DNA of 62,540 bases from Acidimicrobiia bacterium (GTDB lineage Bacteria; Actinomycetota; Acidimicrobiia; Acidimicrobiales; VFJN01). Shown in pieces: positions 22,033 through 37,498 of this stretch. Under the pieces are notes generated by a model that saw only the letters and a list, made by a program, of their open reading frames with translations, did not search any database and had not been told where the DNA came from. A program made the position numbers and the translations under genes. Location: assembly GCA_009694375.1 (NCBI GenBank), contig SHVB01000017.1, forward strand, positions 1 to 62,540. Reading direction: 5' to 3'. The stretch's first letter is position 1. Each line of letters opens with the position of its first letter.

Positions 22033-22103
22033 CGGGGAGTTCACCCTAAGTGTTGTTATCGTCCCACCAGTAGGATAAGGTCACCTTGGGTGGGGAGCAT
22101 GGC

Positions 22104-22131
22104 TTGGTCTTAGTGCTCTGGGTGGTAATGT
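22104..22131 (+). promoter_or_regulatory. Possible sigma-70-type promoter of the BldD-like gene
   Basis: TTGGTC and TAATGT are separated by 16 bases in the 150-bp gap after rsmE. They precede the regulator ATG by about 50 bases. The hexamers resemble the -35 and -10 consensus of the principal sigma factor only in part. No BldD-type palindrome (AGTGA-N-TCACT class) was found nearby. Confidence 0.35.
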
Positions 22132-22182
22132 GGCGGGTGCGGAGGTGCTCCGTGGCGGGAATTTGTGGGAGGTAGGGATCAA

Positions 22183-22743: not shown

Positions 22744-22768
22744 TTCCGGTAGTGGCCATGATGGGCCG

Positions 22769-23860
22769 GTGACGGCGATCCCTCCGACGCCGTTCGGTGT
22801 GTACCTCCACATTCCGTTTTGCGCGGCACGCTGCGACTACTGCTCTTTTGCCACCTGGACCGACCGACACCACCTCACCGAGGCCTACTTGGAGGCCTGT
22901 CGCTTGGATGCCGACCAACTGGTGGCGGCGGGTATGCCGGCGGCCACATCTATCTTTGTGGGCGGTGGCACACCGTCGATGGTTCCCGCCGCCGACCTCG
23001 TTGCCGTGCTCAAGCGTGTGCCGCGTACCGCCGAGGCCGAGGTGACCGTGGAGTGCAATCCCGACACGGTGACCGCCGAATTGCTCGACACCTACCGGGC
23101 GGGTGGGGTGAACCGACTGTCGTTTGGTGTCCAATCCACTTCGCCGCACGTACTGGCGGCGCTTGGCCGCACCCACGACCGGGCCAACGTGGAGCGATCA
23201 GTGGCCTTGGCGCGAGCGTCGGGCTTCGAAACCTTCAACCTGGATGTGATCTACGGCGGGGCGGGGGAGACCATGGCCGACTGGTGCCAGACCTTGGCCG
23301 ATGTGGTGGCGCTGGAGCCGCCGCATGTTTCCGCCTATGCGCTCACTGTGGAAGCGGGGACCGCCCTTGCCGCCGATCCGGCCCGGCACCCCGACGACGA
23401 CGATCAGGCCGACAAGTACTTGGCGGCCACCGAACAACTGGGGGCGGCCGGGCTGGATTGGTACGAGATCAGTAACTGGGCCCGGCCGGGGCATGAGTGT
23501 CGCCACAACCTGTTGTACTGGACGATGGGCGAGTATCAGGGGATCGGGTGCGCCTCGCACTCCCACCGCCAGGGCCGTCGCTTCTGGAACCTTCGCACAC
23601 CAGACCGCTACCTCGAAGCGGTGCGCGATGGAGCAACGGTGGAAGCCGCCGATGAGCGCCTGGATCCGCCCGATCGGGCTCTGGAGGCGTTGCAGTTGTC
23701 GTTGCGGACGCGCCACGGCGTTCCGGCAGGAGCGCTCGGGTTGGTGCCAGAAGAACTCGCGGGCCTAGTGGAACCTCACCCCAGTGAGCCTGAGCGGGTG
23801 GTGTTGACGGTGCCGGGGCGCCTGTTGGCCAACGAGGTGGCGCTTCGTTTGGTGGTGTGA
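22769..23860 (+). CDS. hemW: Radical SAM protein HemW (heme chaperone / coproporphyrinogen oxidase-like)
   Basis: Radical SAM enzyme of 363 aa. The iron-sulfur motif CAARCDYC fits CxxxCxxC, preceded by GVYLHIPF. Other landmarks are FVGGGTPSMV, VECNPDTV, RLSFGVQS and NLDVIYGGAGET, and the C-terminal HemN-like domain begins around WYEISNWARPG. The extra Cys after the motif found in true HemN is replaced by Ser (CSF), which favours HemW. HemW binds heme and is thought to deliver it to respiratory enzymes. GTG start. Linkage to hrcA and dnaJ is common in many bacteria. Confidence 0.93.
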   Translation: MTAIPPTPFGVYLHIPFCAARCDYCSFATWTDRHHLTEAYLEACRLDADQLVAAGMPAATSIFVGGGTPSMVPAADLVAVLKRVPRTAEAEVTVECNPDTVTAELLDTYRAGGVNRLSFGVQSTSPHVLAALGRTHDRANVERSVALARASGFETFNLDVIYGGAGETMADWCQTLADVVALEPPHVSAYALTVEAGTALAADPARHPDDDDQADKYLAATEQLGAAGLDWYEISNWARPGHECRHNLLYWTMGEYQGIGCASHSHRQGRRFWNLRTPDRYLEAVRDGATVEAADERLDPPDRALEALQLSLRTRHGVPAGALGLVPEELAGLVEPHPSEPERVVLTVPGRLLANEVALRLVV

Positions 23861-23870
23861 ACCGTGGTGC

Positions 23871-24293
23871 TTAGCCACTGGTGGTGATCGCGGTGGCGGT
23901 GGCGTGCACCTCGGTGTGGTGGTGGGCGCCAGGGATGGCCTTGGCGAAGATGTAGTCCACCCGCACCGCCACGGTTACTTGCACGGTGTCGGGGTAGGGG
24001 ACTCGCACATCGACACGGATGATCTGTTTGGCAACGTCGCTTTCGGCCAGTAGGCGACGGCCGATCTCCTCGGCCCGGCGGGGGTTCAGTTGAAAGGTGC
24101 CCGTGGCTCGGAACTCGGCTTCGTCCACCGCCAGTGCGGCCAGGTCATTAGCGGCGTCGCCGGCGGCGGAACTGGTCTGGCGTTGACGGAGAAAGACCAC
24201 GGACAAGTCGAAAGCGATGGCCCCGAGGAGAATCACGATGAGCACTCCGGCGGGCATGAGCATGAGCACCGACGCGCGGTCGTGACGCCTCAC
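23871..24293 (-). CDS. TadE/TadG-like pseudopilin (third copy)
   Basis: The 140-aa product has a single N-terminal hydrophobic helix preceded by RRHDRASVLMLMPAG, the layout of TadE/TadG-type pseudopilins. A segment rich in Ala and acidic residues follows the membrane helix (SSAAGDAANDLAALA). The C-terminal part is beta-rich and predicted extracytoplasmic. Such proteins are minor components of the Tad pilus. The GTG at 24293 overlaps the upstream gene stop as GTGA, so the three TadE-like genes are co-translated. The gene ends 10 bp from the hemW stop, facing it. Confidence 0.72.
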   Translation of the reverse strand: MRRHDRASVLMLMPAGVLIVILLGAIAFDLSVVFLRQRQTSSAAGDAANDLAALAVDEAEFRATGTFQLNPRRAEEIGRRLLAESDVAKQIIRVDVRVPYPDTVQVTVAVRVDYIFAKAIPGAHHHTEVHATATAITTSG

Positions 24294-24751
24294 AGACAGT
24301 CCTCGGCGTCGCCGGTGAGCCCGGATCGGAAGGGGTCTACGAGTTCCCGGTGGGTGGAACGCACCCGGAACGGGGCCTTGCCGTACCCGCCGATGAACGG
24401 CAAGGAGAGCGCCGGCACTTCGTACACCGCTTCGAAGGCGACGCGGGCGCATCGTTGGAGTTGGGCGGGGCCCACCGGCGCGATGAGGGCCCGGTGAGGA
24501 TCGCGTCCGTGGCCCTCGATCACGGCGTTTCCAGCGGCGATGGCGGCACCGGTGGCCGTGGCAGGGTCGTCGGATTCCACGAAGGTCCGGGTGGCCTCCC
24601 GAGCGGCAGCATCGGTGGCGAACTTGGCGTCGACAACCGCCCAGGCATTGGCGATCAGCAGGGTGCCGATCACGAAGATCAGTAGGCCGAACGAGAGGGC
24701 CTCGATGCCCCCCACCTGGCCGGCATCACCCCGGAGGGGAGACGGCCTCAC
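24290..24751 (-). CDS. TadE-like pseudopilin (second copy)
   Basis: The 153-aa protein has a short polar start, the segment GDAGQVGGIEALSF and a hydrophobic helix (about residues 20-38). The Glu in GGIEALSF is placed like the conserved Glu after the processing or insertion site in TadE proteins. The remaining 110 residues contain two or three Cys and are probably exported. It likely contributes to the Tad pilus machinery encoded upstream. Overlaps of four bases with both neighbours (GTGA) show it is part of one operon. No enzymatic motif is present. Confidence 0.7.
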   Translation of the reverse strand: MRPSPLRGDAGQVGGIEALSFGLLIFVIGTLLIANAWAVVDAKFATDAAAREATRTFVESDDPATATGAAIAAGNAVIEGHGRDPHRALIAPVGPAQLQRCARVAFEAVYEVPALSLPFIGGYGKAPFRVRSTHRELVDPFRSGLTGDAEDCL

Positions 24752-25161
24752 GGCTGGAACGCCTCTATGCGCACGCGGACGGTTCGACGAACTTCGTCAA
24801 GGCCGAGAGCACCGCCGATGGAGGGGGGAATGAAGCGGGGAGGAGAGGCCACCACGAGCAGCACAACGGTGTCGACCGCACCGTCTCCGTCGCTGTCGTG
24901 TTCACTCCATTCGAACTCGGCGGCATCGCCGATCTCACCGAGGTTGCGACGGGCATCGGCCTCGATCAGCGACCAAGACGGGGCTCCGCCCTCGGCCGCT
25001 CGGTGAGCGGCGTCGTTGGTCACCGCTGTGACGGTGGAGGAGGCGTAGAGGCCGAAGAGCAACTGCACCGCGAAGAGCAAGAAGACCAGGAACACCACCA
25101 CGCCGGCGGCGGTGGACAGTAGGCCCGCGCCACCGTCGTCCCCGGGGCGGTGGGTACTCAA
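24748..25161 (-). CDS. TadE-like pseudopilin (first copy)
   Basis: A strongly hydrophobic helix (GVVVFLVFLLFAVQLLFGL) lies near the N-terminus. An Ala-rich helix and a soluble domain follow with an acidic SDGDGAVDT patch that resembles a small Ca-binding loop. The start is uncertain: TTG at 25161 follows the Flp-like stop by one base and gives 137 aa; an upstream start would overlap the Flp-like gene by about 70 bases. Position between the Flp-like gene and two other TadE-like genes supports a minor-pilin role. Confidence 0.65.
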   Translation of the reverse strand: MSTHRPGDDGGAGLLSTAAGVVVFLVFLLFAVQLLFGLYASSTVTAVTNDAAHRAAEGGAPSWSLIEADARRNLGEIGDAAEFEWSEHDSDGDGAVDTVVLLVVASPPRFIPPSIGGALGLDEVRRTVRVRIEAFQP

Positions 25162-25162
25162 C

Positions 25163-25381
25163 TCACTGACCGATCTCAGTGACCTTGTCTCGGGTATTGG
25201 ACTCGGTGTCTTCCCAAATCGTCTTGAAGCCAACCCACATCAACGCGCCGATGCCCGCCATAATCAGCACGGCGATCGCCGCTGAGATCACTCCTTCCCC
25301 CCGGTCGTCGCGCGGTGGCGGAGCGGTGTCGGCCCACCAGGTGATGAGGCGGACATAGCGGTCGTACGGGGTCACGGACAT
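25163..25381 (-). CDS. Flp-like pilin candidate
   Basis: A 72-aa protein with one hydrophobic segment (residues 31-50) preceded by DDRGEGV. This resembles the class III (Flp) prepilin layout of a short polar leader, a Gly, and a Glu near the start of the helix, though the leader is long and the classic Gly-xxxx-Glu-Tyr spacing is not exact. If correct it would be the main subunit of the Tad pilus, or a TadE-like accessory. The ATG at 25381 has a clear AAGGAGA site five bases upstream. It sits directly after tadC, the usual place of flp in actinobacterial loci. Confidence 0.65.
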   Translation of the reverse strand: MSVTPYDRYVRLITWWADTAPPPRDDRGEGVISAAIAVLIMAGIGALMWVGFKTIWEDTESNTRDKVTEIGQ

Positions 25382-25409
25382 GGATCTCCTTGGTTGGATG
25401 CCTTAGTGG

Positions 25410-26321
25410 TCATGTGGTTGAAAAGAGGCGCAGCGCCTCGATGAAGGGGACGGCGAGGAGCACTGCACCGGGCACCAGCGTGGCGACGGTGACGGGGATC
25501 CAGACCTGTTGTGATCGGCGTTCGATCTGCTCCATGAGTTCCCGTTGCCCATCGCGACGGATGGCGCGGGCTTCGTTGCCGACCAGGCGGCCCAAGTCGC
25601 CGGCCTCGCGGTTGAGGGCCAGCACCGCCACGAGCCGATCGAGGGCGTCGACATCGGCGAGAGTCGCCCATTCCTTGAGTGCTTCCACTTCGGAGAGGCC
25701 CTGGCGGATCCGTCCACACGCGATAGCGAGGTCTTGCATGCAGGCACCGGTGCCCCGCTGGGCGATCCGGTTGAGGGCAGCGGTGAGGGAGAATCCGGCC
25801 CCCAACAGCATGCCGAGTTGTTCGCTCACCACGGGCAGCTCGAGGAAGATCCGTCGCTTCCACTGTTCGGATTGGTGGGCGAGTTGCTGTTCAACCAGCA
25901 GGAAGCCCAGGGCGGGCCCACCGAGCACCAACAGCATGGCCACGGCCAAAGGGGGGCGGGTGGCGGCGGCGAGTAGGAGGCCGAGCGCCAGGCCACTGGC
26001 CGCCCGTCCCAGTTGATGGACGCGAAAGTCGGTTGGGTCGACGGGGGAGTGGATGCGTTGGAGGCGCACCGCCACTTCCTCTCGGATACCCAAAAGCCGG
26101 GCCATCCGCTCCCCGAGATGGCGGGCCAATGGGCCGATCACCTCTCGGAAGGACTCCACCGAAAGGATGCCGCCACTGCTGTTGTTACTACCGGCTCGGG
26201 TGGGGCCGTAGGGGCGAAGCCTCGCCGCGAGGGGTTCGCGGCTGAACCACCGAATTTCGGAGAGCACGAGGGTGGTGCCGACAGCTAGGAGGAGCGCCGA
26301 GAGGGCCAGGGTCCTAGACAT
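25410..26321 (-). CDS. tadC: Tad pilus inner-membrane platform protein TadC (GspF domain)
   Basis: The 303-aa integral membrane protein carries a type II secretion GspF domain. There is a hydrophobic N-terminal helix, two central helices (about residues 105-140), and the cytoplasmic four-helix region with LPVVSEQLGMLLGAGFSL. ALKEWATLADVDALDRLVAVL follows before the final membrane helix. TadB and TadC form the membrane platform driven by TadA. The gene overlaps tadB by eight bases and precedes the Flp-like gene by 28 bp. Which of the two platform proteins is called B or C is by order only. Confidence 0.85.
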   Translation of the reverse strand: MSRTLALSALLLAVGTTLVLSEIRWFSREPLAARLRPYGPTRAGSNNSSGGILSVESFREVIGPLARHLGERMARLLGIREEVAVRLQRIHSPVDPTDFRVHQLGRAASGLALGLLLAAATRPPLAVAMLLVLGGPALGFLLVEQQLAHQSEQWKRRIFLELPVVSEQLGMLLGAGFSLTAALNRIAQRGTGACMQDLAIACGRIRQGLSEVEALKEWATLADVDALDRLVAVLALNREAGDLGRLVGNEARAIRRDGQRELMEQIERRSQQVWIPVTVATLVPGAVLLAVPFIEALRLFSTT

Positions 26322-27195
26322 CGAAGACCCGTTCCTCTTGGGGGAGCATCATGATGCGGCCGGCCCAGATCCAACACGCCACCACGAGAACCAGGGACAC
26401 GACCACGAGGACTTGCCCGGTGGGGGTTTCGTACGCCTGGCGGCCGGTGCCCACGGACATGCCCGCGAGGGCCATTCCGGCCGGCACGATCAAGACGAAG
26501 AACCGGGCGAAGCGCGCCCCGGCTTGCTTGGCGGCCGCGTCCTTCCGGCCCTGAGAATCCTGGATGCGGTCATCGATCAGCGCGTCGAGGCGGCGGTCGA
26601 GGTCGGTGCCGCCAACCTCATGGGCCACCAGGAGGGTTTCGCATACGGCGTCGGCGGTGGGATCAGCTAGGCCAGCCTTGAGCACCACCAGCGTGCGGGG
26701 GAAGTCGGTGGAGAGGAGCCATTCGCGTTGGGCGGCGGCGAAGGCGGGCTGCATGTCCGGGGGTGCGCGTCGCCCCACTTCGAAAAGGGATTGCGGGATG
26801 GAACGACCGAGGGCCGAGGTCATGATCCGAAGTTCCTCCAGGAGCCGCGGCCAGGCGTCCATGGCGGCGGCCCGTCGATTCACGCGGCGCGCCCGGTAGG
26901 ACGCAATCGGGAAAGACGCCGCGAACGCGCCGGTTACCAGGGCCGGGAGAATGCCCCCAAACACGACGAAGGCGCCGAAGGCCCCGAGCGCACCCAGGGT
27001 CGCCATCACCGCCGCCAGTTCTCGCATCGGGATGTCGGCGAGGCCGGCTTGCACGAGCCAGTCTCGGCGGCGGGCCTGGTGCCGGGAGGTTGCCGAAGGG
27101 CGCGGCCAGCGCAGGTCGCGCCAGCCCAGCACCGCCGCCGTGAAGAGGAAATAGGTGCCAGCCGCCGCCGCGGTAGCCAGCACCACCGCGATCAT
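26314..27195 (-). CDS. tadB: Tad pilus inner-membrane platform protein TadB (GspF domain)
   Basis: A 293-aa protein with an N-terminal hydrophobic helix, paired central helices (about residues 60-100) and the GspF cytoplasmic helices containing WPRLLEELRIMTSALGRSIP and CETLLVAHEVGGTDLDRRL. Two C-terminal membrane helices complete it. The topology matches TadB, the platform partner of TadC. The ATG overlaps the tadA stop as ATGA, coupling translation to the motor ATPase. Nothing unusual in length. Confidence 0.87.
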   Translation of the reverse strand: MIAVVLATAAAAGTYFLFTAAVLGWRDLRWPRPSATSRHQARRRDWLVQAGLADIPMRELAAVMATLGALGAFGAFVVFGGILPALVTGAFAASFPIASYRARRVNRRAAAMDAWPRLLEELRIMTSALGRSIPQSLFEVGRRAPPDMQPAFAAAQREWLLSTDFPRTLVVLKAGLADPTADAVCETLLVAHEVGGTDLDRRLDALIDDRIQDSQGRKDAAAKQAGARFARFFVLIVPAGMALAGMSVGTGRQAYETPTGQVLVVVSLVLVVACWIWAGRIMMLPQEERVFDV

Positions 27196-28622
27196 GGGGA
27201 CACTCCGGGGCGTCCCTGCAGAAGGGAATGGAGGTCGGCGCCGCTTTCGGCCAGGGCCCGTGCGATACGGACGGGAACATTGCCTGACCAGTGGAGTTCC
27301 TGGCCCGTGCCGGGCCGATCAAACACCTGGGTCACGGTGAACTGGGCCGCTTCCGGTCCGCCGGCGAGGTCCTCTACAGCGATGATTTCGGTCACTCGGG
27401 GTCCGTCGGCGCCCCGTCCACAATGCACGACAACATCGATGCTCTCGCTGACCAGGGTGTTGAGAGCGGTGAGGGGGAGTTCGCTGGAGGAGTCCGACAA
27501 CTGGCAAATGAATCGGAGCCGGGTGAGGGCCTGGCGGGCCGAACCGGCATGGATGGTGGTGAAGCCCTTCACCCCCGACGACAACGTGAGCAGAAGCGGC
27601 AGCGCTTCGCGGTCTCGAACCTCGCCCACGATGGCCACATCGGGGGCCATGCGCAGAAACCCGGCCACCAGACGGCGCAGGTCAACGGCCGGTCGGTCGG
27701 GTCGACCGGCCCGGGTTTGCATGCTGGCCACGTTCGGCAGCGGGACGTCGGCTTCGAAGACTTCTTCGGCGATAACGACGCGTAGGGAGGGGTCTAGTTC
27801 GGCGGCGCAGCATGACATGAGGGTGGTTTTGCCTGATCCGGGGGCGCCGGCGATCACGATGGTGAGTTGTGCGTTTACGCAGGCGGTGAGGAAGTTGGCT
27901 GCTTGGGTGGTGAGCATGGAGCGTTCGACGAGTTGGTGGAGTTGGCGGTAGGCGACGCCGGTGAATTTGCGGATGTTGACCATGATGTGGCCGCCTCGGC
28001 TGATGTCGCCGTGCACGATGTGGAGGCGGGCGCCGTCGTCGAGTTGGGCGTCTTGGAGGCCTTCGGCGGGGTCGAGTTTGCGGTGGGAGGTGGAGGCGTC
28101 GTCGAGGATTTTGGTGAGTGTGCGGATGACGTGGTCGTCGTCGTGGAACGCCTCGTCGTGGTAGCCGGAGGGGCCTCGGTGGCGTTTCACGAAAATTGAA
28201 TCGGGGGCGTTGACCATGATTTCCCAGACGTCGTCGTCGTCGAGAAGGGGGCCGAGGGGGCCGTAGCCAGCGAGATTCCGGAAGGCGCGGTCGGCGATGG
28301 CGAGGGGGTTGTTGAGGTCGTAGGGGCGGAGGCCGCGTCGGTGGTCGAGGGACCAGCGGGTGATTTCGCTATCGATGAGGTCTTGGAGTTTGGTGTGGCC
28401 AGTGGGGGTGGTCATCTCGAGGGAGATGTCTTTGGCTTGTTCCTGGACGGCCCGCTCGATTGCTTCGAGGGGGCCGGGGTCAGATTCCACCGTTGGCCGC
28501 CGCCTTGGAGTGCTCCGCCAGCGCTCCTCGGGTCCGATGCAAGCATGCCTTCGGGGCCCACGCAAGGGTGATGGGGGTGGGGTGGGGGGTGGTGCCGCCG
28601 ATCCGTCAGTGTTTTTCGACAC
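27192..28622 (-). CDS. tadA: Tad pilus assembly ATPase TadA/CpaF
   Basis: Secretion ATPase of the CpaF/VirB11 family, 476 aa, which powers pilus assembly. The Walker A GAPGSGKTT is near residue 260, the Asp/Glu box is RMAPDVAIVGEVRDREA near 320, and a His-box FTTIHAGSA follows. The N-terminal domain has GPLGPLLDDDDVWEIMVN, typical of CpaF. Codon choice is uneven: from about 28480 to 27745 nearly all codons end in C or A (CTC, GTC, CAA, GAA), while the remaining 3' third favours CTG and GTG like neighbouring genes. The GTG at 28622 gives a Pro-rich 60-residue leader; later starts are possible. Divergent from the pseudokinase gene. Confidence 0.93.
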   Translation of the reverse strand: MSKNTDGSAAPPPTPPPSPLRGPRRHACIGPEERWRSTPRRRPTVESDPGPLEAIERAVQEQAKDISLEMTTPTGHTKLQDLIDSEITRWSLDHRRGLRPYDLNNPLAIADRAFRNLAGYGPLGPLLDDDDVWEIMVNAPDSIFVKRHRGPSGYHDEAFHDDDHVIRTLTKILDDASTSHRKLDPAEGLQDAQLDDGARLHIVHGDISRGGHIMVNIRKFTGVAYRQLHQLVERSMLTTQAANFLTACVNAQLTIVIAGAPGSGKTTLMSCCAAELDPSLRVVIAEEVFEADVPLPNVASMQTRAGRPDRPAVDLRRLVAGFLRMAPDVAIVGEVRDREALPLLLTLSSGVKGFTTIHAGSARQALTRLRFICQLSDSSSELPLTALNTLVSESIDVVVHCGRGADGPRVTEIIAVEDLAGGPEAAQFTVTQVFDRPGTGQELHWSGNVPVRIARALAESGADLHSLLQGRPGVSP

Positions 28623-28629
28623 GTTTCAG

Positions 28630-28643
28630 TATAACTGGTTATA
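28630..28643. promoter_or_regulatory. Palindrome in the divergent tadA / pseudokinase promoter region
   Basis: TATAAC-TG-GTTATA is a perfect 6-bp inverted repeat in the only AT-rich patch between tadA (start 28622) and the plus-strand gene (start 28653). It lies within 10 bp of both starts. It may be an operator shared by both genes or overlapping -10 elements, since TATAAC and its complement both resemble -10 hexamers on either strand. Confidence 0.45.
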
Positions 28644-28652
28644 TTACAAGTG

Positions 28653-29846
28653 ATGCAGATTTCCGTGGAAGTGGTGAGTGGGGCCGGCCCCCCGGTGGTG
28701 GTGAAACGAGCCGAGGGCGCCGAGGTGGACCGTCTACGAGCCGAGGGCGTCCGACTCCAACAGGCCAGCCATCCCGGAGTGGTGCAACTGCTCTCATCGC
28801 GGCCGACGCCCACGGGGTGGGAGCAGCAGACGGTTCATGCTGGACGTCCCCTCGAGTTGGTGGGGGCCCTTTCGGTGGGGCAGGTGGCCGCATTGGCCGT
28901 GGGGTTGGCTACCACCATCGCCGACCTCCACGCCGCCGGAATCACCCACGGCCGGATCGATGCATCCCATGTGCTGGTGGGGACACAATGCCGACCGGTG
29001 CTCTGTGGCTTCGCCGCTGATGCAACCGCGGATCCGGGCCCGGCCGCCGACGACGTCGCCGCCATCGGCCGCATCATGACATCGCTGCTGGGCACGGAAA
29101 CCGAGGCAGAGCCCTTTCCTCTCCGACGATGGGGACGCGACCACCGCTGGACCGGCTGGGAACGCCGCGCCCTGCTCACCCTGGCCGATCAGGCAGGCAC
29201 TGAACCAGCCACCCGCCGCCCGAGTGCCCGTCGCCTCGCCGCCGCCATCAGCGAAGCCATCCCATCGGCATCACTCGGGGCCGACCGGCCCCGTTCCGAG
29301 CGCGTCGGCCAGCACCGCCGGCCGCCGTCGAAGGGGCGACCTGCCACCGGAGTGGTATCGGTCGCACTCGCAGCGGTGGGGGCCGTGGCCCTCGCCGTCG
29401 CCATCAGCCGTACCGGAGTGGAGGCCGACCCCCCGCCGGTGATCACCGCCACGACCCCGCTGCCCCCATCCGTCACCGCCTCCAACCCCTGCGAGGCCGT
29501 CGGTGGCGTGGACCTCAAGGGCGATGGATGCCAACAAGCGGCGGCGGTCAACGGCCAGATCATCACGGTGGGCGACGAGCGGTTCGAGGTGGGCCAGCCC
29601 GGTGACGAGATCGTGGTCCGAGACTGGGACTGCGATGGTCAACCCACCCCCGCCCTCTTGCGACCACGTACCGGAGAGGTCTTCGTCTTTACTAGGTGGA
29701 ATCTGGCTGCCGATGTGGTGATCGGGCCCAACGCCACGGTGGTGGGTGCGCAGCGGTTGGTGGCGGATGCTCCGGCGGGGGCGTGTAGCGGACTGTCGGT
29801 GCGCACCGCCGATTCAGTGGTGGAGATCGTGCGGGCCCACTCATGA
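28653..29846 (+). CDS. Membrane pseudokinase within the Tad locus
   Basis: The 397-aa protein has a truncated eukaryotic-type kinase fold. PVVVKRA places the ATP-site Lys at residue 18, and HPGVVQLL fits the alpha-C to beta-4 region. LHAAGITHGRIDASHVLV aligns with the catalytic loop, where HRD is HGR (99-101) and the Lys and Asn are replaced by Asp and His. The DFG motif is CGF (118-120). No phosphotransfer is expected. After a basic linker come one transmembrane helix (233-252) and a 140-residue outer domain with four Cys. A GTG three bases earlier is an alternative start. It probably senses an external signal and acts by binding, perhaps on pilus function; that role is inferred from location only. 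Confidence 0.78.
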   Translation: MQISVEVVSGAGPPVVVKRAEGAEVDRLRAEGVRLQQASHPGVVQLLSSRPTPTGWEQQTVHAGRPLELVGALSVGQVAALAVGLATTIADLHAAGITHGRIDASHVLVGTQCRPVLCGFAADATADPGPAADDVAAIGRIMTSLLGTETEAEPFPLRRWGRDHRWTGWERRALLTLADQAGTEPATRRPSARRLAAAISEAIPSASLGADRPRSERVGQHRRPPSKGRPATGVVSVALAAVGAVALAVAISRTGVEADPPPVITATTPLPPSVTASNPCEAVGGVDLKGDGCQQAAAVNGQIITVGDERFEVGQPGDEIVVRDWDCDGQPTPALLRPRTGEVFVFTRWNLAADVVIGPNATVVGAQRLVADAPAGACSGLSVRTADSVVEIVRAHS

Positions 29847-30547
29847 TGCGCCCGGCCTGCCGGGGCGTCCCCGTGGCGACAGGCTCACTCGTGGCGCTGG
29901 GGTGGCTCGATCCGGCCGGCCCCTTGCCCGCTTCGGGGTCTTGGCCCGACGTAGACCGCTGGTACGAGACCGTGGGCACCACCGTGGCGACGGTGACGGC
30001 GTTGCGTTGGGTGGCCATGGCGGTCGCGGGATGGCTGTTGGCGGCCTGCGTCCTTCAACTCATCGCCTCGCTCCCGGGGGCCACGGGCCTGCGCCCCCTG
30101 GCCGATCGCATCACCCCGGCCGTCCTCCGCGGCATCGCTAGTGTGTCGCTCTCGGCGGCCGTACTGGCCACCACCCCCATGCTGGCCGGGGCCGGCGATG
30201 CCCCCGGAACCGCCACGATGCACCCGTCGTCACTGGCGGCAACAACGACGACCACCACGCTGACCCCGGACCCCCCTCCGTTGGCACCCTCCGCCTCCGC
30301 CGTTCCCGCCCGCACTGAACCCACGATCCCATCGCCGGTTGCCCACACCGTGGTGCGCGGTGAGAGCTTCTGGTCGATAGCCGCCCAGCGACTGACCGAG
30401 GTGAACGGCCCGCCTCCCAGCGATCAGACAGTGCTCGCCTACTGGGATCGCCTGGTGGCGCTGAACCGCACTCGCCTCGTGGACCCCTCGAACGCTGATC
30501 TCATCTACGCCGGTCAGGTGCTCATCCTGCCGCCCACCCCGCCCTGA
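29843..30547 (+). CDS. Membrane-anchored LysM protein
   Basis: A 234-aa protein with hydrophobic segments near residues 10-22, 53-76 and 98-116, then a Thr/Pro linker and a C-terminal LysM domain. The LysM starts HTVVRGESFWSIAAQRL and ends NADLIYAGQVLILP, a complete fold with a longer middle loop than usual. LysM binds peptidoglycan, so the protein probably links membrane and cell wall. The ATG overlaps the pseudokinase stop (ATGA), so the two are made together. Its place between tadA and tadZ suggests a role in wall passage or anchoring of the Tad pilus. The role is inferred. Confidence 0.82.
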   Translation: MMRPACRGVPVATGSLVALGWLDPAGPLPASGSWPDVDRWYETVGTTVATVTALRWVAMAVAGWLLAACVLQLIASLPGATGLRPLADRITPAVLRGIASVSLSAAVLATTPMLAGAGDAPGTATMHPSSLAATTTTTTLTPDPPPLAPSASAVPARTEPTIPSPVAHTVVRGESFWSIAAQRLTEVNGPPPSDQTVLAYWDRLVALNRTRLVDPSNADLIYAGQVLILPPTPP

Positions 30548-30574
30548 GCACGCCGAATCGGCCATGATCGGGCT

Positions 30575-30772
30575 GTGACCCCTGCCGAGGCCGTGGCGAA
30601 TGCCCACCAATGGTTCGAGCACCACAGCGGGTGGGCACCCCCCGACGAGGGCACCCTGCAGGAATGGCTAGCCGACGGGATGTGCCGAGCCCCCGACGAA
30701 TGTCAGGTCGTCCCCCACGGATGGTGTGCCCATGGCCTGGCCTCATGGCGCCTCATTCTCGACGCCCTCTGA
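30575..30772 (+). CDS. Small Cys/Trp/His-rich protein of the Tad locus
   Basis: A 65-aa protein, not assigned to a known family. It contains four Trp, three Cys and five His, with spacing CRAPDECQVVPHGWC that could hold a metal. The GC-rich third codon positions and 27-bp spacing after the LysM gene support it being real and in the same operon. The start is GTG. No signal peptide or membrane helix is present, so it is probably cytoplasmic. It ends 15 bp before the tadZ stop, facing it. Confidence 0.55.
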   Translation: MTPAEAVANAHQWFEHHSGWAPPDEGTLQEWLADGMCRAPDECQVVPHGWCAHGLASWRLILDAL

Positions 30773-30787
30773 CATGGGGCCCAGGCA

Positions 30788-32113
30788 TCACTGATAGGGC
30801 TCGTTGTCGTCGGGTTCATCGGGGGTCCAGGAGCCGAGCGAACCCGGGCGGACCGGGACCATCTCCGGCACCTCGAGGGGGATCCGAGCACCGTGGTCGT
30901 GGGCATCGAGCAACCGGCCCACCGTGGTGGCGAGGGGATGCACCCATCCATCAGGGAGACGGGCGCCGTCGCGCAGGAGATCATCGAGGTAGCGGCGCTC
31001 GGGGAGAAATACCGGGCTGGGGACGCCGTGGTCGGCCTGAGGGCCCAACAGTTCGCCGAAGGTGGCGGTGAGGGCAGCCCGGGCCCGTCCCCCGCGCGGG
31101 GATCGGTTCACCAGGGGGAGCAGCCGGCTTCCCTCGATGCCGTAGGCGAGGAGATCCCGGACGGTCCGCAGTAGACCATGCATCCCCTTCATGCCCGGCT
31201 GGCCCACCACGATGATCAACCCGGCGGCCGCGCTGGAGGTCCGCGCCATGGTGTTGCGTTCCTCCACATCCAGCGAGCCCGACGCTCTTTCGCCCTCCAC
31301 GTCGGCATCCACATCAGCCACCACAACACGGAAACTACGACGAAGGCCGTCAAGACCCGCCGAGAACGCCCGGGGGCGCACCGCTGTCCAATCCCGGTGC
31401 TGACGCAGGCCGAGGAGCAGGTGATAGCCGCGTTCGTTCACCCTCCAGGTGAGGGCTCGGACGGCGTCGATCGATGGGGTTCCGCTGCGGTGGGCTTCGG
31501 CCAGTTCCACCACCCCGGGCACCACGTCGTGGGTCCCATGCAGCATGGCCAACTCGGCGGTGAGGGCCAGATCAGCCAGGCACACGTTGTCGAGGTAGCG
31601 GGGGTCGGCCGCCAATCCCTGCGCCACGGCCATCGCCACGGTGGAACGCCCCACCCCGCCCGCCCCGGTGACCGCCACCAGCGCCCCGCGATAGCCCGGT
31701 ACTTCCCCCGCCCCCGGGGTGGGAAGGTCGGTGGCCTGGCCGAGCGGGACAGGAGTGGCTACCTGGGTGAGGATCTGCTGGAGGTCGGAGCGACTGAACC
31801 CTGCGGGCAGCACCGCCGCTACCCCCAACTCGGCCCACTGTCGCGCCGCTCGACCGTTGTCGATCACAATGACCGCGCAACCGGCGTCGCGAGCGATCTG
31901 TACCAAATCACGGTCGAGACCGGCGAGGGAGTCGTCGATGAGCAACGCAGAGAAGCCACGACCCGATCGAAGGCGAACCCGGGCCTCCTCGATCGACATG
32001 GTCTTCACGAACTCCACCGGGAGCATCGCCGAGTTGGCCCACCGAGCAACCTCTCGGAACCAGGGGCTACGGACCTGAGCGGTCCCGAGGACCACGAATC
32101 GCTCGGCGTTCAT
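30788..32113 (-). CDS. tadZ: TadZ/CpaE-like ParA-family protein
   Basis: The 441-aa product has an N-terminal receiver-like domain (about 1-120, ending VLPAGFSRSDLQQIL) and a MinD/ParA-type ATPase domain. The P-loop is GAGGVGRST (150-158): the usual second Lys is Arg156 and the deviant signature Lys is also missing. An ADLALTAELAMLHG segment and a VVADVD strand follow. TadZ/CpaE proteins place the Tad machine at a cell pole. Atypical P-loops are known in some TadZ proteins, so it may bind nucleotide without turnover. It overlaps cpaB by one base (TGATG). Confidence 0.85.
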   Translation of the reverse strand: MNAERFVVLGTAQVRSPWFREVARWANSAMLPVEFVKTMSIEEARVRLRSGRGFSALLIDDSLAGLDRDLVQIARDAGCAVIVIDNGRAARQWAELGVAAVLPAGFSRSDLQQILTQVATPVPLGQATDLPTPGAGEVPGYRGALVAVTGAGGVGRSTVAMAVAQGLAADPRYLDNVCLADLALTAELAMLHGTHDVVPGVVELAEAHRSGTPSIDAVRALTWRVNERGYHLLLGLRQHRDWTAVRPRAFSAGLDGLRRSFRVVVADVDADVEGERASGSLDVEERNTMARTSSAAAGLIIVVGQPGMKGMHGLLRTVRDLLAYGIEGSRLLPLVNRSPRGGRARAALTATFGELLGPQADHGVPSPVFLPERRYLDDLLRDGARLPDGWVHPLATTVGRLLDAHDHGARIPLEVPEMVPVRPGSLGSWTPDEPDDNEPYQ

Positions 32114-32766
32114 CAGGGGCCGGCGGGTTCGCTCGCACTAGGGCCGTCGGCCCCAAAGGTGGATCGCACCACCGTCACATCGCCGGTGCGCAGCGCATCC
32201 ACCAGGGCCGTCACGGCATCACCGGAGGGCACCGCTACCACCAGTTCCACCTCCCGGTCACTCGTGATCGACCCATCCGCGGACGAGCCGATTTGGACCA
32301 CCTCGGCGGAACGCACCACCAACTCGGTGGCGTCGTTGTAGGTGACGAACAGATCCACTCGTTCGCCCTGTTTCAGGCGTCCCACCGCCATCTGGGCCCG
32401 CGGCAAGGTAACGGCCACCTCATGGCGGGCCCCGCCGCTCACATCGTTGGTGACCAGGCCCGCTTGCACGATTTCGCCCTCGCCGACGGGTCCGAGGGCT
32501 ATCCGTCCGATCACATCCTCGGCCGTACCGAAGGTGCTGGTGGCTACCTCGGCGGGGAGATCGGCCTCCACGAGGTGAACATCCTCCGCCGTGATTGTCT
32601 CACCCACCAGGAGTTGGGTGCTCGCCACCACGACGGGCTCGGTGGGGCGTGCGGAGGCGTGTGAATAGGCCACGAACACCCCCAGGGCCGCTACCGCCAT
32701 CAGGAGGCCCCCCACCACCGCCCGACCGCCCGGGAGGCGGCGTCGCCGGTCAATCTGCTGCTCCAT
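32113..32766 (-). CDS. cpaB: CpaB/RcpC-like pilus assembly protein (SAF domain)
   Basis: A 217-aa protein with a basic N-terminus, one membrane helix (about 18-35) and a SAF domain (VVVASTQLLVGETITAEDV) followed by the CpaB C-terminal region with LKQGERVDLFVTY. CpaB works outside the membrane in Tad pilus assembly; in Gram-negative bacteria it assists the secretin, which is absent here as expected for a single-membrane cell. It is the first gene of a two-gene cpaB-tadZ unit. The HTH gene is divergent, 86 bp away. Confidence 0.88.
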   Translation of the reverse strand: MEQQIDRRRRLPGGRAVVGGLLMAVAALGVFVAYSHASARPTEPVVVASTQLLVGETITAEDVHLVEADLPAEVATSTFGTAEDVIGRIALGPVGEGEIVQAGLVTNDVSGGARHEVAVTLPRAQMAVGRLKQGERVDLFVTYNDATELVVRSAEVVQIGSSADGSITSDREVELVVAVPSGDAVTALVDALRTGDVTVVRSTFGADGPSASEPAGP

Positions 32767-32852
32767 GATTCCGCCCTTCCCATCGACGCTGCGCCCAGGC
32801 CGACTTGAAGAACCATCAGACTACATGAAGCAGACGGGGCTAACCTGGGAAG

Positions 32853-33086
32853 ATGGTATCCCCCAGCGAGATCCACTGGCTATCCACCCAGGAAGCGGCA
32901 CGGCGTCTGGGGATCACCACCCGAACCCTCTACCGCTTCGTCGATCAGGGCGACCTGCCCGCCTATCGCATGGGACGGGTGATCCGCCTCAAAGCCACCG
33001 ATGTCGACGCTTTCATCGACGGATCCCGCATTGAGCCCGGGACCCTCGATCACCTCTATCCCGATACCCGTCCCGCATCGTCCTAA
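32853..33086 (+). CDS. Excisionase-family / BldC-like helix-turn-helix protein
   Basis: A 77-aa protein with a MerR-like HTH_17 domain: LSTQEAARRLGITTRTLYRFVDQ is the helix-turn-helix, and LPAYRMGRVIRLKATDVDAFI is the wing. Such proteins bind DNA as small dimers. There is no integrase or other mobile gene nearby, so a chromosomal regulator like BldC is more likely than an excisionase. It is divergent from cpaB and could control the Tad genes; that is inference from position. It faces the following gene tail to tail with 13 bp between. Confidence 0.85.
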   Translation: MVSPSEIHWLSTQEAARRLGITTRTLYRFVDQGDLPAYRMGRVIRLKATDVDAFIDGSRIEPGTLDHLYPDTRPASS

Positions 33087-33099
33087 GCCGCCGCCGGGT

Positions 33100-33732
33100 T
33101 CAGCCCAGGCCCACCTCGCTGATGGAATCGAGCGGCACATAGACCAGGCCCGGAGGATCTCCCTCGGTGCGCACGGTCGCCACATCGATACCGACGCCTC
33201 GCAGTTCCCCGGCGGTGATGCCCTCGGCCCCGGAGGTCACGATGACCACGCGAGCCCGATCGGCGGCCAACTGGCTCAGCACATCAGCCAGGCGTAGGTC
33301 GGTGGTCAACGGGCGCGCCCCGATCGCCACCTCGCGGGGGTTGGCCCGCAACCCCGATACGGCGCGCCGCGCCATGAGCAACTCGCGCCCCGCCATCGTG
33401 CGGAGGGCAAAAAAGTCGACCCCAATCACCCCGATGACACCATGATGACGTCGCCCGGTTTCCACCTGCACCGTGACCGATTCGCCCCGCTCGGCCAGAT
33501 CAGCCAGCACGCCCCCGAACGTGGCGTCCTGCTCCGCCGCCGAACGCAACCAACGTTCCCGGGATCGCTGCTCGGCGGCCCCATCGATGCGGGCATCGGC
33601 CACCCAGGCCTCCAGCCGCTGGGCAAAGGGCACCCCGTTGTCCCCCCCGTTACCCCCGGGAGGAAGATCGTCGCCGTCTTGATCCACGGCATGATCGTAA
33701 GCACCCCCGAAGGCGGATGGCGCCGAGAGCAC
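33100..33732 (-). CDS. Conserved uncharacterised protein with two Sm-like repeats
   Basis: About 210 aa. After an acidic N-terminus and a basic helix (RSRERWLRSAAEQ) there are two related beta-rich segments. The first runs FGGVLADLAERGESVTVQVETGRRHHGVIGVIGVDFFALRT. The second contains RARVVIVTSGAEGITAGELRGVGIDVATVRT and ends VYVPLDSISEVGL. Each has the strand pattern seen in Sm-like folds, but this is a visual inference. Similar proteins appear widely in actinobacteria without known function. The start is uncertain: GTG at 33732 or GTG at 33687. The longer frame running antisense through phoH was rejected. Divergent from phoH. Confidence 0.65.
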   Translation of the reverse strand: MLSAPSAFGGAYDHAVDQDGDDLPPGGNGGDNGVPFAQRLEAWVADARIDGAAEQRSRERWLRSAAEQDATFGGVLADLAERGESVTVQVETGRRHHGVIGVIGVDFFALRTMAGRELLMARRAVSGLRANPREVAIGARPLTTDLRLADVLSQLAADRARVVIVTSGAEGITAGELRGVGIDVATVRTEGDPPGLVYVPLDSISEVGLG

Positions 33733-33748
33733 TAGCCTGGGAGATGTC

Positions 33749-34708
33749 GTGTCCAGCACCCAGATCAAGATCTCCGTTCCCAGCAACCATCTCATGCCCC
33801 TTCTGCTTGGAGAGCGCGACGAAGTGTTGCGATCGGTGGAGGCTGCCTTCCCGGCCGTCATCATCCATGTGCGGGGAAACGAGATCGCCCTCGAAGGAGA
33901 CGACACCGTGGAGCAGGTGGGTCGGCTACTCGAAGACCTCATCGTGCTGGTGGAACAGGGCCAGCGCCTCGACCCCGGCCTGGTGCGCCGTAGCGTGGAC
34001 ATGGTGCGGCAAAACCAACGCCCCGCCGAGGTGCTCAGCACCGAGGTGCTCCGGCCGCCCCGGGGGCGACCGGTGCGGCCGAAGTCGAGCGGGCAGAAGC
34101 GATACGTAGACGCCATCGCGCAAAACGTGATCACCTTCGGTCTGGGCCCGGCTGGTACGGGAAAGAGTTGGCTGGCCGTGGCCATGGCGGTGCAAGCACT
34201 GCAGGCAAAGGAAGTGGAACGCATCATTCTCACCCGGCCGGCCGTGGAAGCGGGAGAGCGGCTGGGCTTTCTCCCCGGCGACTTGATGGCCAAGGTCGAT
34301 CCATACCTGCGGCCCCTCTGGGATGCCCTGCACGACATGGTGGGCTTGGAGACAGCCGGCAAACTCCTCGAGCGCGGTGCGGTGGAAGTGGCCCCGCTCG
34401 CCTTCATGCGCGGCCGCACCCTCAACGGATCTTTCATCATCCTGGATGAAGCGCAGAACACCACCCCGGAACAGATGAAGATGTTTCTCACCCGCATCGG
34501 CTTCGGATCGAAAGCCGTGATCACTGGCGACACCACCCAGGTTGATGTGGACAGCGGACGCAGCGGGCTGGGGGGCCTGGAGAAGATACTCACCGGCATC
34601 GACGGTCTTGGTTGGGTGCACCTCACCAGCGCCGATGTGGTGCGCCATCGCATCGTGCAGGACATCGTGAACGCCTACGAGCGCGCCACTCCGCCGACGA
34701 GGCCCTGA
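33749..34708 (+). CDS. phoH: PhoH-like protein (PhoH/YbeZ ATPase)
   Basis: P-loop ATPase of 319 aa. A KH-like N-terminal region (residues 20-60) precedes the ATPase domain with Walker A GPAGTGKS near residue 132. TRPAVEAGERLGFLPGDL follows, then the Walker B ILDEAQNTT and ITGDTTQVD. YbeZ works with the RNase-like YbeY in rRNA processing and ribosome quality control, and the ybeY gene follows directly with one base between stop and start. GTG start with GGGAG seven bases upstream. This phoH-ybeY-corC-era order is widely conserved. Confidence 0.95.
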   Translation: MSSTQIKISVPSNHLMPLLLGERDEVLRSVEAAFPAVIIHVRGNEIALEGDDTVEQVGRLLEDLIVLVEQGQRLDPGLVRRSVDMVRQNQRPAEVLSTEVLRPPRGRPVRPKSSGQKRYVDAIAQNVITFGLGPAGTGKSWLAVAMAVQALQAKEVERIILTRPAVEAGERLGFLPGDLMAKVDPYLRPLWDALHDMVGLETAGKLLERGAVEVAPLAFMRGRTLNGSFIILDEAQNTTPEQMKMFLTRIGFGSKAVITGDTTQVDVDSGRSGLGGLEKILTGIDGLGWVHLTSADVVRHRIVQDIVNAYERATPPTRP

Positions 34709-34709
34709 C

Positions 34710-35336
34710 ATGCCTGCCCCTGACCCCGATGGGCCCGACCGCCCCGATCCCCGCGACCTCCCCGATGGTGTGGAGGCCGACGAACTCCCGCCCTTGCCGC
34801 TGATGGCCCGCAAACCCCGCCCGCCCCAAGATGGGGAAGTGGAGGTATTCGGCGTGGACGAGCAGACCGACCAGCCCGTGGAACTCGCCCGCTGGGTCGA
34901 CCTCGCCGCCGATGTGTTGGCTGATGCTGGGGTGCGGGGCGAGGCCGAACTCTCTCTCGCCTTTGTCTCCGAGGAGGTGATGGGGGATCTCAACAAACGG
35001 TTCATGGACGTCGCAGGCCCCACTGATGTATTGGCCTTCCCGCTCGATGACCCCACTGATGCCGGCCGCTGGCCCGACGCCGGCAGCACCGGCCCCGATC
35101 GCGATCCGCCGCCGGTCAGCGAACTACCCATGCTGCTCGGCGACGTGATCGTGTGCCCTGCCGTGGCGGCTCGACAGGCACCGTCGCACGCCAGCACCTA
35201 CGACGACGAGATCGCGCTCCTGGTGGTGCACGGCGTCTTGCACGTGCTGGGAATGGACCACGCCGACCCCGAGGAAGCCACCGTGATGCAGGTCCGCGAG
35301 CAAGATCTCCTGGAACGATTCCACCACCGACGATGA
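34710..35336 (+). CDS. ybeY: Endoribonuclease YbeY
   Basis: A metal-dependent RNase family protein of 208 aa involved in 16S rRNA 3'-end maturation. The zinc motif HGVLHVLGMDH lies near residue 172, matching HGxLHxxGxDH. The upstream TDVLAFP segment is also conserved. The first 45 residues are a Pro/Asp-rich extension not usual in the family, and an insertion rich in Asp, Gly and Pro follows TDVLAFP, so it is longer than the typical 150-160 aa. The start could be later, at an ATG about 30 residues in. It is in operon with phoH and the CorC-like gene. Confidence 0.93.
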   Translation: MPAPDPDGPDRPDPRDLPDGVEADELPPLPLMARKPRPPQDGEVEVFGVDEQTDQPVELARWVDLAADVLADAGVRGEAELSLAFVSEEVMGDLNKRFMDVAGPTDVLAFPLDDPTDAGRWPDAGSTGPDRDPPPVSELPMLLGDVIVCPAVAARQAPSHASTYDDEIALLVVHGVLHVLGMDHADPEEATVMQVREQDLLERFHHRR

Positions 35337-35378
35337 GGGGCTTGATGAATCCGTTGGCCGCCGGGCGCGAAAGCCATC

Positions 35379-36662
35379 ATGAACACCACTAACACCGCAA
35401 TCGCCTTGACGATCGTGGCCCTGTTTCTGTTCTCCATTGTGCTGGCGGTAGCGGAGACCGCGCTCACCCGTATCTCGAAGGCCCGCGCCCACGCCCTGGC
35501 CGAGACCAGTGGCCGTCGTGGAGAGGTACTGCTGTCGTTGGTGGAGAACCAAGAGTGGCTCAACCCCACATTGCTACTGGTGCTCTCGACGCAACTCGTG
35601 CAGTCCACCCTGCTGGGGGTGTTGGCCAGTCGGCTCTTCGGCGGATGGGGGGTGCTGCTGGCCACCATCTTGAACGTGACGCTGTTCTTCGTGATTGCCG
35701 AAGTTGCCCCCAAGACGTGGGCCATCCAACACACTGACCGGGCCGCGTTGTCCTTCGCCCGCCCCATCAAAGCCTTGGCCGGGTGGCCCCCGCTCCGGCT
35801 CTTATCGCGCGGGCTTATTGGCGCCACCAACGTGCTGCTCCCCGGCAAGGGTCTCAAAGCTGGGCCGTACACCTCCGAAGAGGAGTTGCTGGCGGTGGCG
35901 GATCTGGCGGTGGAGGGCCTGGTGATCGCGGCGGAGGAGCGCGACTTCATCCAGTCGGTCATCGCACTGGGAGACACCGTGGTACGCGAGGTGATGTTGC
36001 CCCGCACCGACATGGTCACGGTGAGCGCCGAGGTACGAGTGGCCGACGCGATGGAGGTGGTGATCCTCAACGGGTACAGCCGCATCCCGGTTTGCGGCGA
36101 GGGAATCGACGACGTAGTGGGCGTGGCCCACGCCAAGGATCTGATGCGGGCCGAACGCGCCGGGAAAGAGCACAATGCCGTCTCCACGTTGGCCCGCCCG
36201 GCCCGCTTTGTGCCCGAGACCAAGGGTGTGGCTGATCTGTTGCGCGAAATGCAACGCGACCGCTACCACCTAGCCATTGTGATCGATGAGTACGGCGGCA
36301 CGGCAGGGCTGGTGACCCTGGAGGACATCATCGAAGAACTCCTGGGTGAGATCGTGGATGAGTTCGACGTGGAACGCGCCATGAGTGAACCGCTGCCCGG
36401 CGGTGACTTTCGAGTGAACGCCCGGATGCCCATCGATGAGGTGAACCAACTGATCCATGCGCATCTCCCGGAAGGCGACTGGGACACCCTCGGAGGACTG
36501 TTCCTGTCCAAACTCGGGCACGTGCCCGACGAGGGGGAGTGGGTTGAAGTCGTGGGATGGCAGTTGATCGCGCAGGGAATGCAGGGCCGGCGCATTGGGG
36601 GCGTGCGCCTCCATCGACTTCCCGTCGATGGTTCGTCCTCCCCGCCCGCCGCGGAGTTGTGA
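35379..36662 (+). CDS. CNNM/CorC-HlyC family membrane protein
   Basis: A 427-aa protein with an N-terminal DUF21 (CNNM) membrane domain of three or four helices (LVLSTQLVQSTLLGVLAS; FFVIAEVAPKTWAI). Paired CBS domains follow, about residues 205-330, with MLPRTDMVTV and YHLAIVIDEYGGTAGLVTLEDIIEEL-type signatures. A C-terminal CorC_HlyC domain has WDTLGGLFLSKLGHVP. The family is linked to magnesium or cobalt export and was earlier called hemolysin-like. It lies between ybeY and era as in many bacteria, and its TGA overlaps the era ATG by one base. Confidence 0.92.
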   Translation: MNTTNTAIALTIVALFLFSIVLAVAETALTRISKARAHALAETSGRRGEVLLSLVENQEWLNPTLLLVLSTQLVQSTLLGVLASRLFGGWGVLLATILNVTLFFVIAEVAPKTWAIQHTDRAALSFARPIKALAGWPPLRLLSRGLIGATNVLLPGKGLKAGPYTSEEELLAVADLAVEGLVIAAEERDFIQSVIALGDTVVREVMLPRTDMVTVSAEVRVADAMEVVILNGYSRIPVCGEGIDDVVGVAHAKDLMRAERAGKEHNAVSTLARPARFVPETKGVADLLREMQRDRYHLAIVIDEYGGTAGLVTLEDIIEELLGEIVDEFDVERAMSEPLPGGDFRVNARMPIDEVNQLIHAHLPEGDWDTLGGLFLSKLGHVPDEGEWVEVVGWQLIAQGMQGRRIGGVRLHRLPVDGSSSPPAAEL

Positions 36663-37498
36663 TGCGCACCGGATTCGTGACCTTGGTGGGTCGCCCCAAC
36701 GTCGGGAAGTCCACGCTGCTCAACAAGATTCTGAAGACCAAGGTGGCCATCACGTCCGACAAACCCCAGACCACCCGTACCCGCATCACCGGAGTCCTCA
36801 ACCGCCCCGACGCGCAAGTGGTGTTCGTGGACACCCCGGGCATCCACAAACCCCGCACCCAACTCGGCACTCGCCTCAACGCCACCGCGCAAGGAACGAT
36901 CAACGACGTGGACGTGGTGTGCTTCGTGCTCGACGCCACCCAGCCCTTCGGGCGCGGCGACCAATGGGTAGCGAACCTCATCCCCCCGAACTCGGTGTGC
37001 ATCGTCAACAAGGCGGACAAGGCGAAACCCAAGGAAGTGGCCGATCAGCTAGTGGCGGCGGCTGGACTGAAGCTAAGTGAATATTTCCCCCTGTCGGCCA
37101 AGACCGGCGATGGGGTGACAGCGCTAGTGGATCACCTCATATCCCGGCTTCCCGTCGGACCCCAATACTTCCCCGACGACATGGTGACGGACGTACCCGA
37201 GGCGTTCATGGTGGCAGAGTTGGTGCGAGAGCAGTTGCTGCGTCGCACCCACGATGAACTCCCGCACTCCATCGCCGCGCGTGTCACGGAATGGGACTGG
37301 CCGCTGATTCGCTGCGAGATCCTGGTGGAGCGCAACAGCCAGAAGGGGATCGTGATCGGCCATAAAGGCCAGGTGCTCAAGGAGGTTGGCATCGCCGTGC
37401 GCCAGCAACTCCCCGAGGGCACCTACCTCGAGTTGCTGGTGAAGGTGGACAAGGACTGGCAGTCTCGGCCCAAGGCCATGGAGCGCTTCGGCTACTAG
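36662..37498 (+). CDS. era: GTPase Era
   Basis: A 278-aa Ras-like GTPase with a KH domain that binds the 16S rRNA 3' end and aids 30S maturation. G1 is GRPNVGKST at residues 10-18, G2 contains TTRTR, G3 is DTPGIHKP and G4 is NKAD. The C-terminal KH motif is GIVIGHKGQVLKEVG. Length is slightly below the usual 300 aa but all elements are present. The ATG overlaps the previous stop (TGATG); a longer in-frame start inside the CorC-like gene was rejected. With phoH and ybeY it forms a ribosome-maturation operon. Confidence 0.96.
   Translation: MRTGFVTLVGRPNVGKSTLLNKILKTKVAITSDKPQTTRTRITGVLNRPDAQVVFVDTPGIHKPRTQLGTRLNATAQGTINDVDVVCFVLDATQPFGRGDQWVANLIPPNSVCIVNKADKAKPKEVADQLVAAAGLKLSEYFPLSAKTGDGVTALVDHLISRLPVGPQYFPDDMVTDVPEAFMVAELVREQLLRRTHDELPHSIAARVTEWDWPLIRCEILVERNSQKGIVIGHKGQVLKEVGIAVRQQLPEGTYLELLVKVDKDWQSRPKAMERFGY

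Follow-up and report, generated by a model that had tools for sequence, protein, structure and literature searches.

The window (the whole 62,540-nucleotide stretch of DNA that was analysed) carries a tad pilus locus on its reverse strand, interrupted by three genes on the forward strand. The motor ATPase gene tadA (27192-28622) was identified by a T2SSE match (E 3e-28) and is followed by a tadB-like platform gene (26314-27195), assigned from a sub-threshold T2SSF match and synteny, a tadC-like platform gene (25410-26321; T2SSF, E 6e-8) and a flp-type pilin gene (25163-25381), assigned from sequence and synteny. Three tadE/tadG-like pseudopilin genes (24748-25233, 24290-24751 and 23871-24452, spanning 23871-25233) were assigned by synteny, with a sub-threshold TadE match for the first of the three only. 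On the other side of the forward-strand genes, again on the reverse strand, lie tadZ (30788-32113), encoding a ParA/MinD-like ATPase with sub-threshold CbiA/MinD matches and about 45-56% identity to its counterparts at tad loci in most of the order's tad-bearing genomes, and cpaB/rcpC (32113-32766; SAF domain, E 2e-9). Next comes a forward-strand gene for a small HTH_17 DNA-binding protein (32853-33086; Pfam HTH_17, E 8e-15, and synteny); in most tad loci a gene of this type points away from cpaB, and its product may regulate the locus. The tad locus was apparently inserted in an rsmE-hemW-phoH-ybeY-era neighbourhood (21313-37498; some of these names were read from sequence), a site at which some tad-less genomes carry what look like relics of the kinase gene described below.

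The three forward-strand genes encode a Tad-linked transmembrane pseudokinase of 398 residues (28650-29846; GTG start at 28650, alternative ATG at 28653), a LysM membrane protein of 234 residues (29843-30547; identified using Pfam LysM and a family alignment) and a 65-residue Cys/Trp protein (30575-30772). An earlier sequence-only reading of this DNA had given the coordinates, order and strands of these frames, and their tadA and tadZ flanks, correctly. All three are kept in the same-genus genome G001, with dN/dS values below one (0.25 for the kinase frame over the last 230 residues, 0.41 for the LysM frame and 0.11, from ten changes only, for the 65-residue frame), and they are therefore not chance open reading frames. 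The divergent starts of tadA (GTG 28622) and the pseudokinase gene are separated by 27 bp (28623-28649), limits that share the uncertainty of the tadA start. The palindrome TATAACTGGTTATA (28630-28643) lies in this gap, inside a promoter-like box found by pattern matching on the forward strand (28616-28645), and could be a shared control site of the two genes.

Domain architecture of the pseudokinase and its LysM partner

The cytosolic pseudokinase domain (residues 1-205; 28650-29264, forward strand) was delimited using an AlphaFold model, comparison with the PDB and motifs. The model, obtained from a 44-row alignment, has a pLDDT of 80 overall and mostly above 90 in the kinase domain. Structure comparison of its residues 1-208 with the PDB returned kinases at Z 18-19 with about 185-197 residues aligned, among them M. 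tuberculosis PknB (1mru_A; Z 18.7, rmsd 2.4, 188 aligned). The model thus has a two-lobed protein kinase-like fold, as the sequence-only reading had proposed, and the poor alignment to kinase structures that would have spoken against that proposal was not observed. A profile search of the PDB placed ordinary kinases on top, with StkP first (E 2e-17) and PknA and PknB lower, and a PDB search with the single sequence gave no significant match. No Pfam or NCBIfam kinase model reached its cut-off on the window protein.

The catalytic loop, canonically HRDLKPEN, reads HGRIDASH in the window protein, with the HRD Asp replaced by Arg102, the Lys by Asp104 and the Asn by His107, so that the change of HRD to HGR and the loss of the catalytic-loop Lys and Asn had been read properly from the start. 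The DFG motif had been read as CGF; its Asp is indeed lost, replaced by Gly120, but that register was off by one and the aligned motif is GFA. The activation segment is deleted, because only 15 residues separate the DFG position from the alpha-F Asp, compared with 36-51 in active relatives with intact motifs. With Arg102, His107, Gly120 and no full activation segment, the domain does not have the make-up of a catalytically competent Hanks-type kinase. The beta-3 Lys (K19) and E32 are retained, and the residues of the nucleotide pocket (K19, E32 and His107) are conserved and not drifting. Motifs could be read in 30 loci with the gene behind tadG (some contigs are represented twice in this set, and readings are incomplete in a few sequences beginning at a contig edge). 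In these loci, Asn107 is changed to His in 30/30, the DFG Asp is lost in 30/30 and the HRD Asp in 28/30; K19 is kept in 26/27 aligned sequences and E32 is nearly invariant.

A predicted membrane helix, read from the sequence at about residues 233-253 (29346-29408, forward strand), is preceded by an Arg/Lys-rich stretch, and we infer an N-in, C-out topology. The outer domain (residues 281-398; 29490-29843, forward strand) contains cysteines at positions 281, 294, 328 and 379, in agreement with the helix and four-Cys outer domain first proposed from the sequence. C328 and C379 are present together in 44/46 sequences; the column of the first Cys shifts in the alignment, so that a partner for this residue could not be read by covariation. 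Modelled alone, the outer domain has a pLDDT of 92, and its structure matches are partial beta-propellers only (VIA Z up to 7.4, with regions of integrin alpha among the matches listed); Foldseek searches with this model gave E values all above 0.4 and no clear fold match, and Pfam FG-GAP matched one of 44 family members (E 0.003). Its beta units and a DxDxDG loop may be read as resembling the blades of an FG-GAP propeller, and because the fold matches are partial and weak, "FG-GAP-like" denotes here a reading from the DxDxDG loops and not a proven family.

The LysM protein comprises two or three membrane helices followed by a single C-terminal LysM domain (residues 168-230), which scores above the curated Pfam cut-off (E 8.4e-6; 26.1 bits against 20.9) and bears out the LysM assignment made in the sequence-only reading. 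The ATGA overlap was confirmed at 29843-29846. A four-base ATGA or GTGA overlap is kept in 46/55 distinct kinase-LysM pairs of related genomes, which supports translational coupling of the two genes.

Gene order, co-occurrence and origin

Relatives were drawn from Acidimicrobiia and other Actinomycetota, mostly as MAGs. Their consensus order consists of an HTH gene divergent from cpaB, followed on the strand of cpaB by tadZ, tadA, tadB, tadC, flp, tadE, tadE, tadG, kinase and LysM, and the stretch from cpaB to LysM recurs across families of the order and in Aquihabitans sp. G128 (L081). In Acidimicrobiia, the gene that immediately follows tadG, in the orientation of the tad genes, is a kinase-family member in 36 of 55 distinct tadG loci, a set biased by the many loci that were found with the kinase as query; LysM comes next in 30 of these 36, the kinase is at a contig edge in three and is without LysM in three. 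The other loci comprise ten with LysM and no kinase, four contig ends, two at an edge and three, the window included, with neither gene behind tadG. The inverted placement of the pair between tadA and tadZ is not typical; it is a local rearrangement seen in the genus of the window. In family f16 (L170, L171) the kinase-LysM pair is likewise divergent from tadA, by shared ancestry or repeated rearrangement.

Co-occurrence was counted in 148 separately scored genomes of the order, a count less biased than the tadG-locus set. The kinase family was present in 60 genomes and tad in 73, with both in 52, the kinase only in eight, tad only in 21 and neither in 67 (Fisher p 1.7e-14 for the 2x2 table, phylogeny ignored). 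Conserved synteny and co-occurrence with tad genes make the family a candidate Tad accessory component. Of the 60 kinase genomes, 52 have tad, and the usual place of the gene is behind tadG; the concern that the genes might lie mostly away from tad was examined and does not apply to the pair.

The 65-residue Cys/Trp protein is a member of a conserved family of small proteins whose genes lie away from tad in other genera. Its gene is at tad only in the genus of the window, and orthologues with 62-68% identity lie away from kinase and tad in G005, G008, G043 and G051, adjoining a ClpB-like gene in G008. The three-gene unit of the sequence-only reading was rejected because of these orthologues, and the third gene is treated as a passenger outside the module; the conserved unit is the kinase-LysM pair. 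What stands of the new Tad regulator proposed by that reading is a non-catalytic kinase-fold membrane protein, coupled to LysM and tad-linked across many families of the order, but not as a member of a trio.

The kinase family is not indispensable for tad, because 21 tad genomes are without it and LysM lies behind tadG without a kinase in several intact loci (L177, L215, L216). Tad linkage of the LysM protein family extends to several other families of the phylum, whether or not the kinase is present. Some kinase-family members may act without Tad, because neither tadA nor tadZ was detected in eight genomes that have one. Among these, G063 has tadE and tadG beside the kinase gene (L153), and in G002 the gene lies between hemW and an HTH gene, with no tad genes. 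The kinase gene of G029 lies beside phoH and that of G061 beside lepA-hrcA-dnaJ. The G002 and G029 copies have lost both K19 and His107 and have the appearance of relics left at the hemW/phoH tad site; relatives of the G061 copy keep both residues. Family members in genus g58 (L150, L151, L152) have no tad genes nearby, and copies of the g58-type clade (L082, L117) keep the HRD Asp and lack the DFG Asp.

Some relatives, another class among them, have kinases that share this outer domain and keep intact or near-intact motifs. Three are encoded in tad loci on the side of cpaB and the HTH gene (L053, L056, L103), two in genus g30 close to tadG (L212, L214) and two in tad loci from outside the order (L201, L203). 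A further one (L095) is beside HTH and phoH genes, where no tad genes were seen. In a tree from one short alignment, of which the topology alone was used, active kinases are basal and the pseudokinases form a nested clade with a modest SH support of about 0.87. Given these intact relatives at tad loci, a tad-linked transmembrane kinase probably lost catalysis while remaining tad-linked, an order of events that the tree support makes probable and not proven.

Proposed role of the kinase-LysM pair

We consider with moderate confidence that the most likely role of the pair is to provide the inner-membrane machine of Tad with an envelope-spanning, non-catalytic scaffold or sensor and a partner that anchors it to the wall. 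As a conserved pair with coupled translation, the two genes would be an accessory module of Tad pili in Acidimicrobiia. On the inner side of the membrane, the dead kinase domain would probably serve as a docking or allosteric platform for TadA, TadB, TadC or TadZ, the FG-GAP-like domain would be carried outside the cell and the LysM partner would tie the assembly to peptidoglycan. The module would have originated from an active PknB-type transmembrane kinase, already tad-linked, from which catalysis was lost while the fold, the outer domain and the link to tad were retained. This proposal draws on the loss of catalytic residues and the activation segment, gene order, gene overlap, co-occurrence with tad, the predicted fold and the intact homologues at tad; from these we infer the membrane orientation, the binding of partners and the scaffolding or sensing function. 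A more specific version is put forward only tentatively, namely that this non-phosphorylating, His-loop envelope protein is a true regulatory part of Tad, which would bind an inner-membrane component and gate assembly or retraction on an extracellular ligand or the state of the wall.

The conserved pocket bears on the alternative that the domain acts as a nucleotide switch or as a pseudoenzyme whose activity is non-canonical. K19 and E32 would then hold nucleotide without Mg, and the near-universal His107, in place of the Asn that binds metal, would serve a different metal or chemistry, much as SidJ and other degraded kinase folds catalyse other reactions. The conservation of K19 (26/27), of the nearly invariant E32 and of His107 (30/30) speaks for this alternative; however, the domain has lost the two Mg ligands, the catalytic base and the activation segment, and we regard the alternative as rather unlikely. 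A similarly low probability is given to a purely structural anchor, by which the pair would serve to align the inner-membrane platform with the thick wall or to fasten it there, and would not signal. The strict coupling of pseudokinase and LysM genes, the fact that LysM is linked to tad elsewhere in the phylum even in families where the kinase is absent, and the density that connects the secretin base with peptidoglycan in the Caulobacter Tad machine (PMC13170226) would all suit an anchor, but sensing of an input is suggested by the existence of active-kinase relatives and by an outer domain that is conserved, resembles a sensor and has loops of the Ca type, and the absence of a secretin was judged from gene order only.

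Gene neighbourhood by itself is no demonstration of function, and the pair might serve another envelope process and lie near tad by chance or through shared regulation. The eight genomes with the family and no detected tadA or tadZ, and the G061 copy beside lepA-hrcA-dnaJ, would fit such a neighbour; yet the strong co-occurrence, the conserved order and overlap, and the relic-like state of the G002 and G029 copies at the hemW/phoH tad site, with K19 and His107 lost, make this explanation improbable, and we rank it lowest.

To our knowledge, little is known of Tad pilus regulation and of the crossing of the thick wall in Actinobacteria, and the kinase-LysM pair provides concrete genes for study of that regulation. 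If the scaffold or sensor reading is true, a kinase-derived non-catalytic part has been added to Tad pili, a type IV filament with adhesive function, in a little-studied group of Actinobacteria, and an enzyme has become a scaffold with its gene neighbourhood kept; active and inactive versions in living relatives allow the two to be compared. None of the papers found in a literature search describes a comparable Ser/Thr kinase or pseudokinase encoded with Tad genes, and the sole Tad paper among them with a pseudokinase treats type VII secretion (PMC11217815).

Comparison with known systems

PknB/PASTA-type Ser/Thr kinases (StkP, PknA, PknB) are the closest solved sequences by profile and share the overall topology, whereas the window protein is without catalytic residues and activation segment and its outer domain is not PASTA; they are the probable ancestor type. 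EssB/YukC of type VIIb secretion is a pseudokinase with a reported non-catalytic scaffold role (PMC11217815, PMC12599244). Going by the topology predicted from its sequence and model, the window protein would resemble it in layout, as a membrane protein with a cytosolic pseudokinase domain, a short activation loop and an outer domain, and would likewise belong to an envelope-spanning machine. The window protein differs from it in being linked to tad, where EssB/YukC goes with EssC-type genes, in keeping the beta-3 Lys, and in its FG-GAP-like outer domain and LysM partner.

The protein lies outside the three published actinobacterial pseudokinase families because K19 is kept. In ActPs1 all three canonical catalytic residues are substituted, and in ActPs2 the beta-3 Lys is changed to Arg, the HRD Asp to Asn and the DFG is deleted (PMC12599244), whereas the window protein has K19, R102 and an aligned GFA. 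ActPs3 (MviN) has completely degraded canonical motifs and an activation-loop deletion (PMC12599244), of which the window protein shares the deletion only. The M. tuberculosis protein MviN (MurJ) is also actinobacterial and has a membrane helix afterwards (PMC12599244), but the window protein keeps K19, has no MurJ part and is tad-linked. The likenesses to EssB and MviN were set by layout and description, with neighbours annotated for tad only; neither protein is among the best 60 matches listed in the PDB profile search, which is no evidence against kinship.

The LysM protein, with LysM plus membrane helix, recalls HubP/FimV. HubP is a LysM polar hub that binds the ParA-like ATPase ParA1 and FlhG (PMC8789113), and by analogy the LysM protein could naturally be pictured as a wall anchor that would recruit TadZ, itself a ParA-like ATPase. 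However, the window protein has 234 residues, and the TPR part and the large acidic cytosolic region of those hubs are missing from it; Pfam matched LysM only in it, with no TPR or FimV domain. Its single LysM domain and the lack of a large cytosolic part place it outside HubP/FimV. Kinase-like proteins of secretion loci also include TscD and TshM of the type VII variants c and h, of which T7SSh adjoins Tad genes (PMC11217815); by description, the active site of TscD is conserved, TshM has only potential kinase homology and the systems differ from that of the window.
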